Of a stretch of DNA of 64,000 nt, positions 40,816 through 41,237 are shown one piece after another. The notes under the pieces were generated by a model. That model was not told the DNA's origin. It searched no databases and was given only the letters and a program-made list of their open reading frames with translations. Each line of letters starts with the position of its first letter. The stretch's first letter is position 1. The position numbers and the translations under genes are program-made. Source of the DNA: Paralichthys olivaceus (taxonomy: Eukaryota; Chordata; Actinopteri; Pleuronectiformes; Paralichthyidae); the NCBI RefSeq assembly GCF_024713975.1, contig NC_091108.1, forward strand, positions 8,105,001-8,169,000, given 5' to 3'.

Positions 40816-41237
40816 ATGACAAACGATTTGTCGAAGAAGAAAGGCAAAGGCACCGGAGAGAAGAAGACGAAGAGGAAAGCCAAGAGACGGGAGACTTACG
40901 CCATGTACATCTACAAAGTTTTGAAACAGGTGGGTGACGGACCGAGGCTCCACCGCTTCCTTGTCCCCCGAGGTAAACTAACACCGTCCTGTCCTCCAAG
41001 GTTCACCCGGACACGGGGATCTCCAGCCGGGCCATGAGCATCATGAACTCTTTCGTCAACGACCTGTTCGAGCGGATCGCCACCGAGGCGTCCCGGCTGG
41101 CCCAGTACAACAAGCGCTCCACCATCACCAGCAGGGAGGTGCAGACCGCCGTCCGGCTGCTGCTGCCGGGGGAGCTGGCCAAGCACGCCGTGTCCGAGGG
41201 CACCAAGGCGGTCACCAAGTACACCAGCTCCAAGTGA
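40816..41237 (+). CDS. h2bk1: Histone H2B variant with an intron (H2B.K-like)
   Basis: Two exons, 40816-40929 and 41001-41237, joined in phase 0 across a 71-nt intron (CAG/GTGGGT donor, CCTCCAAG/ acceptor, CTAAC branch-point candidate at 40978-40982), encode a 116-residue H2B. The junction restores YKVLKQ-VHPDTG exactly, so this is an intron and not a frameshift. The whole histone fold is present ([18 protein letters not shown]), as is the C-terminal helix ending AVTKYTSSK, with the ubiquitin-acceptor lysine at residue 111. The N-terminal tail is shorter than in canonical H2B (about 125 residues) and diverged, rich in Lys and Gly. No histone stem-loop follows; an AATAAA lies at 41302-41307. 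Its place beside asb10/gbx1 fits H2BK1 of human 7q36.1, a variant described from ovary and early embryo. As an H2B it would pair with H2A in nucleosomes. The class assignment is by position and divergence, not alignment. Confidence 0.88.

Follow-up and report, generated by a model that had tools for sequence, protein, structure and literature searches.

Replication-dependent histone mRNAs end in a stem-loop, and the genes of variant histones typically have introns and polyadenylated mRNAs (PMC9526256, PMC8857922). One such variant is H2B.K, encoded in human by H2BK1. PMC8857922 describes an intron in H2B.K genes and traces them back to the bony fishes at shared locations; it notes that most genes for H2B.L, H2B.N and H2B.K carry a poly(A) signal, and ascribes to H2B.K a polyglutamine tract of variable length in the N-terminal tail. 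The figures of that paper compare mammals, and its authors find no vertebrate-wide tail sequence that they could link to sea urchin. For H2BK1 a fold divided between two exons is reported, with one-to-one orthologues known from birds and fish, and as of this 2022 nomenclature paper the H2BK1 protein had not been determined experimentally (PMC9526256). The human H2BK1 protein is given 16 substitutions in the fold (PMC11742582), and expression of H2B.K in ovary or oocytes is reported for mammals and chicken (in one of PMC8857922 and PMC9526256). In cattle the region is listed as TMUB1, AGAP3, ASB10, GBX1, IQCA1L, H2BK1, ABCF2, CHPF2 and SMARCD3 (PMC11061390).

Two further systems bear comparison. 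In H2B.N (human H2BN1) an intron likewise interrupts the fold, at the same place (PMC8857922, PMC9526256), but this variant has been reported only from mammals; its fold shares about 42% identity with that of canonical H2B, and its C-terminus is shortened (PMC9526256, PMC11742582). The cleavage-stage H2B of sea urchin groups with vertebrate H2B.K in the published tree, without bootstrap support, and unlike vertebrate H2B.K it has no intron (PMC8857922). Among the papers listed in a literature search for intron-containing H2B of fish or oocytes, none was closer than PMC8857922.

We have analysed a stretch of 64 000 nt of the Paralichthys olivaceus genome (C16:8105001-8169000, hereafter the window), and conclude that positions 40816-41237 very probably code, in two exons, for this fish's orthologue of H2B.K.

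An H2B gene divided by an intron

The first-pass annotation, noting that introns are absent from most animal H2B genes, had proposed an H2B gene split by 71 nt at 40816-41237, and the coordinates prove to be exact: with 40930-41000 removed, 38 and 78 codons are joined into a complete H2B of 116 amino acids (Table 1). The length of the intron is not divisible by three. The frame of the unspliced gene leaves H2B sequence after KVLKQ and ends at a stop at 41037, just as had been read. Within the ranges scanned, 20 removals of the form GT or GC to AG leave the frame open to 41237, of which a single one, the phase-0 GT...AG removal put forward originally, gives an uninterrupted KVLKQVHPDTG. The other 19 lose or gain residues and were rejected. 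The CTAAC noted ahead of the acceptor is likewise present, with no intervening AG.

The joined protein matches the Pfam family Histone (E 4.2e-24), and in the PDB it matches H2B chains (among the best 60 of 181 distinct sequences at E <= 0.001); the three matches viewed as alignments are ungapped at the junction. By these matches the 116-aa product has a complete H2B fold. The two exons differ in composition, third-position G+C being 71% in exon 1 and 96% in exon 2.

Table 1. Features of the H2B gene and of its neighbours, in window positions
Feature	Position	Strand	Details
ASIC gene exon	31623-32183	-	Pfam ASC, E 1.4e-32; best PDB matches ASIC1
H2B exon 1 CDS	40816-40929	+	114 nt, 38 codons, ends KVLKQ; tail and first half of first fold helix
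H2B intron	40930-41000	+	71 nt, GT...AG, phase 0; donor CAG/GTGGGT, acceptor CCAAG/G
CTAAC, branch-point-like	40978-40982	+	no AG from there to acceptor
H2B exon 2 CDS	41001-41237	+	237 nt including stop, 78 codons, starts VHPDTG; remainder of histone fold and C-terminus
AATAAA, likely poly(A) signal	41302-41307	+	64 nt after stop; short motif, chance possible
ASB-type gene, ankyrin and SOCS-box exons	47287-50392	+	Pfam Ank 47287-47601 and 48555-49154; SOCS_box 50192-50392
GBX gene homeodomain	54404-54574	+	Pfam Homeodomain, E 1.1e-24; best PDB match GBX-1, E 8.5e-39
Ankyrin-repeat exons, AGAP-like	62224-62994	-	Pfam Ank matches, weak

H2B genes elsewhere in the genome

The genome from which the window comes (588 Mb in 25 contigs) was searched with each exon, all counts of H2B genes being lower bounds. 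Exon 2 finds at least 43 places, comprising 39 on C12, two on C23, one on C15 and the gene in the window, which is the single H2B found on C16. Exon 1 also finds at least 43. At the KVLKQ junction one half follows the other without a single extra base in all 42 other places, and thus the junction in the window gene is not a product of chance. Here alone, among the 43 places found, is the H2B split, with its halves 71 nt apart. The 39 places on C12 form a histone cluster of about 0.7 Mb (C12:23896758-24588026) with many stem-loops.

The two halves of the protein compare very differently with the other genes. Exon 2 shares 71 of its 78 residues with the gene L003 on C12 and with L009 on C23, and 72 with L002 on C15. 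Over the last 94 residues there are 12 differences from L003 (82 identical) and 11 from L002. Exon 1 in contrast matches itself at E 4.5e-17, and the 42 other places at E 0.148 or weaker. Between the window gene and three other H2B genes exon-2 dN is 0.07-0.08 and dS 0.27-0.46; two pairs among the same three other genes give dS of 0.29 and 0.37. As these ranges overlap, dS was rejected as a clock and gives no age.

These comparisons bear on the most serious alternative, in which the intron would be a recent acquisition by an H2B copy of the replication-coupled type in this lineage, unconnected with the intron of H2B.K. The closeness of the fold to that of the other H2B genes speaks for such an event, as does the overlap in dS, by which great age is not shown, but the tail is unlike that of any of the other 42 genes. 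Nor does the intron have the character of a genomic repeat: its 71 nt match one place in the genome, the intron itself, when simple repeats and very common words are skipped, and an origin from a repeat was rejected on the same search.

The 3′ end of the gene

The histone stem-loop (RF00032) is present in 41 of the 43 H2B places, comprising all 39 on C12 and both on C23. For C12 the count rests on a match within 120 nt downstream, seen for 39 of the 43 places in a genome-wide listing, of whose 75 entries 42 were drawn upon, the other 33 all lying on C12. The listing scored 75 candidates out of 137 123 from a first look, so that a gene's absence from it is weak evidence. In a direct scan (E <= 1) the stem-loop was matched in L009 and L010, the two genes on C23, and in the control L003, but neither at the window gene nor at L002 on C15. 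Over 40600-41700 a scan at E <= 10 gave no RF00032 match, and the four matches obtained were to other families and far below their cut-offs.

Because there is no RF00032 match and an AATAAA lies a short distance past the stop, the window gene has the look, from its sequence, of an H2B variant that is replication-independent. Most H2B.K genes, too, are described as having a poly(A) signal.

The C15 gene L002 (L014, C15:22580500-22590499) is the second H2B to have no RF00032 match in the direct scan. It is intronless, with an open frame of 129 amino acids, and may be another replication-independent H2B. Beside it the opposite strand holds a putative H2A frame, and putative Hsp70-like frames lie nearby. 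The strongest stem-loop of the genome listing (L020, C15:13867364-13867409, 41.5 bits) is also on C15, just past an H2A frame ending SQEY, presumably of the H2A.X type.

The genomic neighbourhood

The ankyrin-repeat exons at the far end of the window resemble the C-terminal part of AGAP proteins and are putatively assigned to such a gene; a PDB search with the AGAP-like exon gave 45 matches, to generic ankyrin proteins only. A PDB search with an ASB exon similarly gave generic ankyrin proteins in the best 60 of 403 matches, and it is from its position that we infer number 10 (ASB10) for this gene. Taken together, the AGAP-like, GBX and ASB-type neighbours agree with AGAP3, GBX1 and ASB10 of the list given for cattle H2BK1 (PMC11061390).

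The agreement is on one side of the gene. On the ABCF2 side, a genome search with the ABCF-type domain PF12848 found it twice on C11 and once on C17, and not by the window gene. That side holds the ASIC gene instead, and ASIC is absent from the cattle list (PMC11061390).

Relationship to H2B.K and to other H2B genes

The assignment to H2B.K is made because the gene encodes an intact H2B in two exons, its splice sites are good and none of the other 42 H2B places found is split; because it has no stem-loop match, an AATAAA near the stop and AGAP-like, GBX and ASB-type neighbours; and because the published accounts give H2B.K an intron, presence in fish, shared locations and in most cases a poly(A) signal (PMC8857922, PMC9526256). 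It shares with H2B.K, as described in print, the two coding exons and an intron inside the part coding for the histone fold, where the other H2B genes found in this genome have none. Orthology is thus argued from anatomy and part of the neighbourhood, rather than from a tree. The variant and its intron were already in print in 2022, and the split H2B noticed in the window most probably falls within this described family.

The following observations count against the assignment: the tail has no glutamine, the ABCF side of the mammalian neighbourhood is not found, ASIC lies there, and the intron has a length of 71 nt. The tail differs from that of published H2B.K. It is rich in lysine (9 in 28 residues), and there is no glutamine in the first 30 residues of the product. 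By our reading the polyglutamine tract does not define H2B.K outside mammals, and the lysine-rich tail of this one species suggests that the tract may be derived in mammals.

The other classes fit less well. H2B.N was rejected, since the window gene has neither a diverged fold nor a shortened C-terminus; its fold is near canonical, as the comparison with L003 shows, and its C-terminus is complete. The replication-coupled genes of C12 and C23 share most of exon 2 with it, but are uninterrupted and carry the stem-loop. Membership of that class (intronless, with a stem-loop, clustered) was rejected for a gene that is split, has no RF00032 match and is alone on C16 among the H2B places found.

The same features weigh against a recent independent gain of the intron. 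In addition to the divergent tail and the unique intron sequence, there is no RF00032 match, the neighbours fit the cattle H2BK1 region (PMC11061390), and an intron in the fold is a published trait of the H2B.K / H2BK1 family (PMC8857922, PMC9526256). We therefore consider such a gain unlikely.

If the gene is indeed H2B.K, splicing would remove 40930-41000 from its transcript, and the AATAAA at 41302 would serve in polyadenylation. The product would be an H2B of 116 amino acids whose histone fold is near canonical and whose tail is short and divergent. The protein would be made outside S phase and put into nucleosomes with H2A. By analogy with mammals and chicken, expression in Paralichthys olivaceus would be expected mainly in oocytes and early embryos. 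For a vertebrate histone variant linked to oocytes, the gene provides one more well-supported example from fish; fish eggs are plentiful, and so a fish copy could ease tests of H2B.K.

Splice sites and the size of the intron

Donor sites were scored with an approximate matrix. By this matrix the donor at 40930 scores 5.9, the highest of the 10 GT sites in 40830-41001. The first-pass annotation had considered an inner donor at 40973 (GAG/GTAAAC) the better-looking of the two, but the scores from this matrix reverse the order, at 2.5 versus 5.9. With that lower score and 28 nt left to the acceptor, 40973 was rejected as a real donor.

That the 71 nt are an insertion breaking the frame of a dead gene, or an error of assembly, is scarcely credible. 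A length not divisible by three would suit it, as would the stop in the unspliced frame, but the 71 nt have proper intron ends, the best donor of the region by the approximate matrix, and a CTAAC without intervening AG; neither half is damaged in any other way, and in exon 2 dN is well below dS.

The likely vertebrate minimum for an intron is ~76 bp, and shorter introns quickly become rare in teleosts (PMC9438311). At 71 nt the intron is slightly under this value, and it is plausible that it is short yet compatible with splicing. A length short of the usual minimum peak speaks mildly against efficient splicing; from the sequence we would nevertheless expect splicing at 40930/41000 in vivo. Because the intron is at the lower limit of size, partial retention can be envisaged; that some oocyte transcripts keep the 71 nt, making splicing a switch on the dose of H2B.K, is however very unlikely. 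A transcript that did retain the intron would encode a product of 73 amino acids, consisting of the tail, the start of the fold and then unrelated residues up to the stop at 41037.
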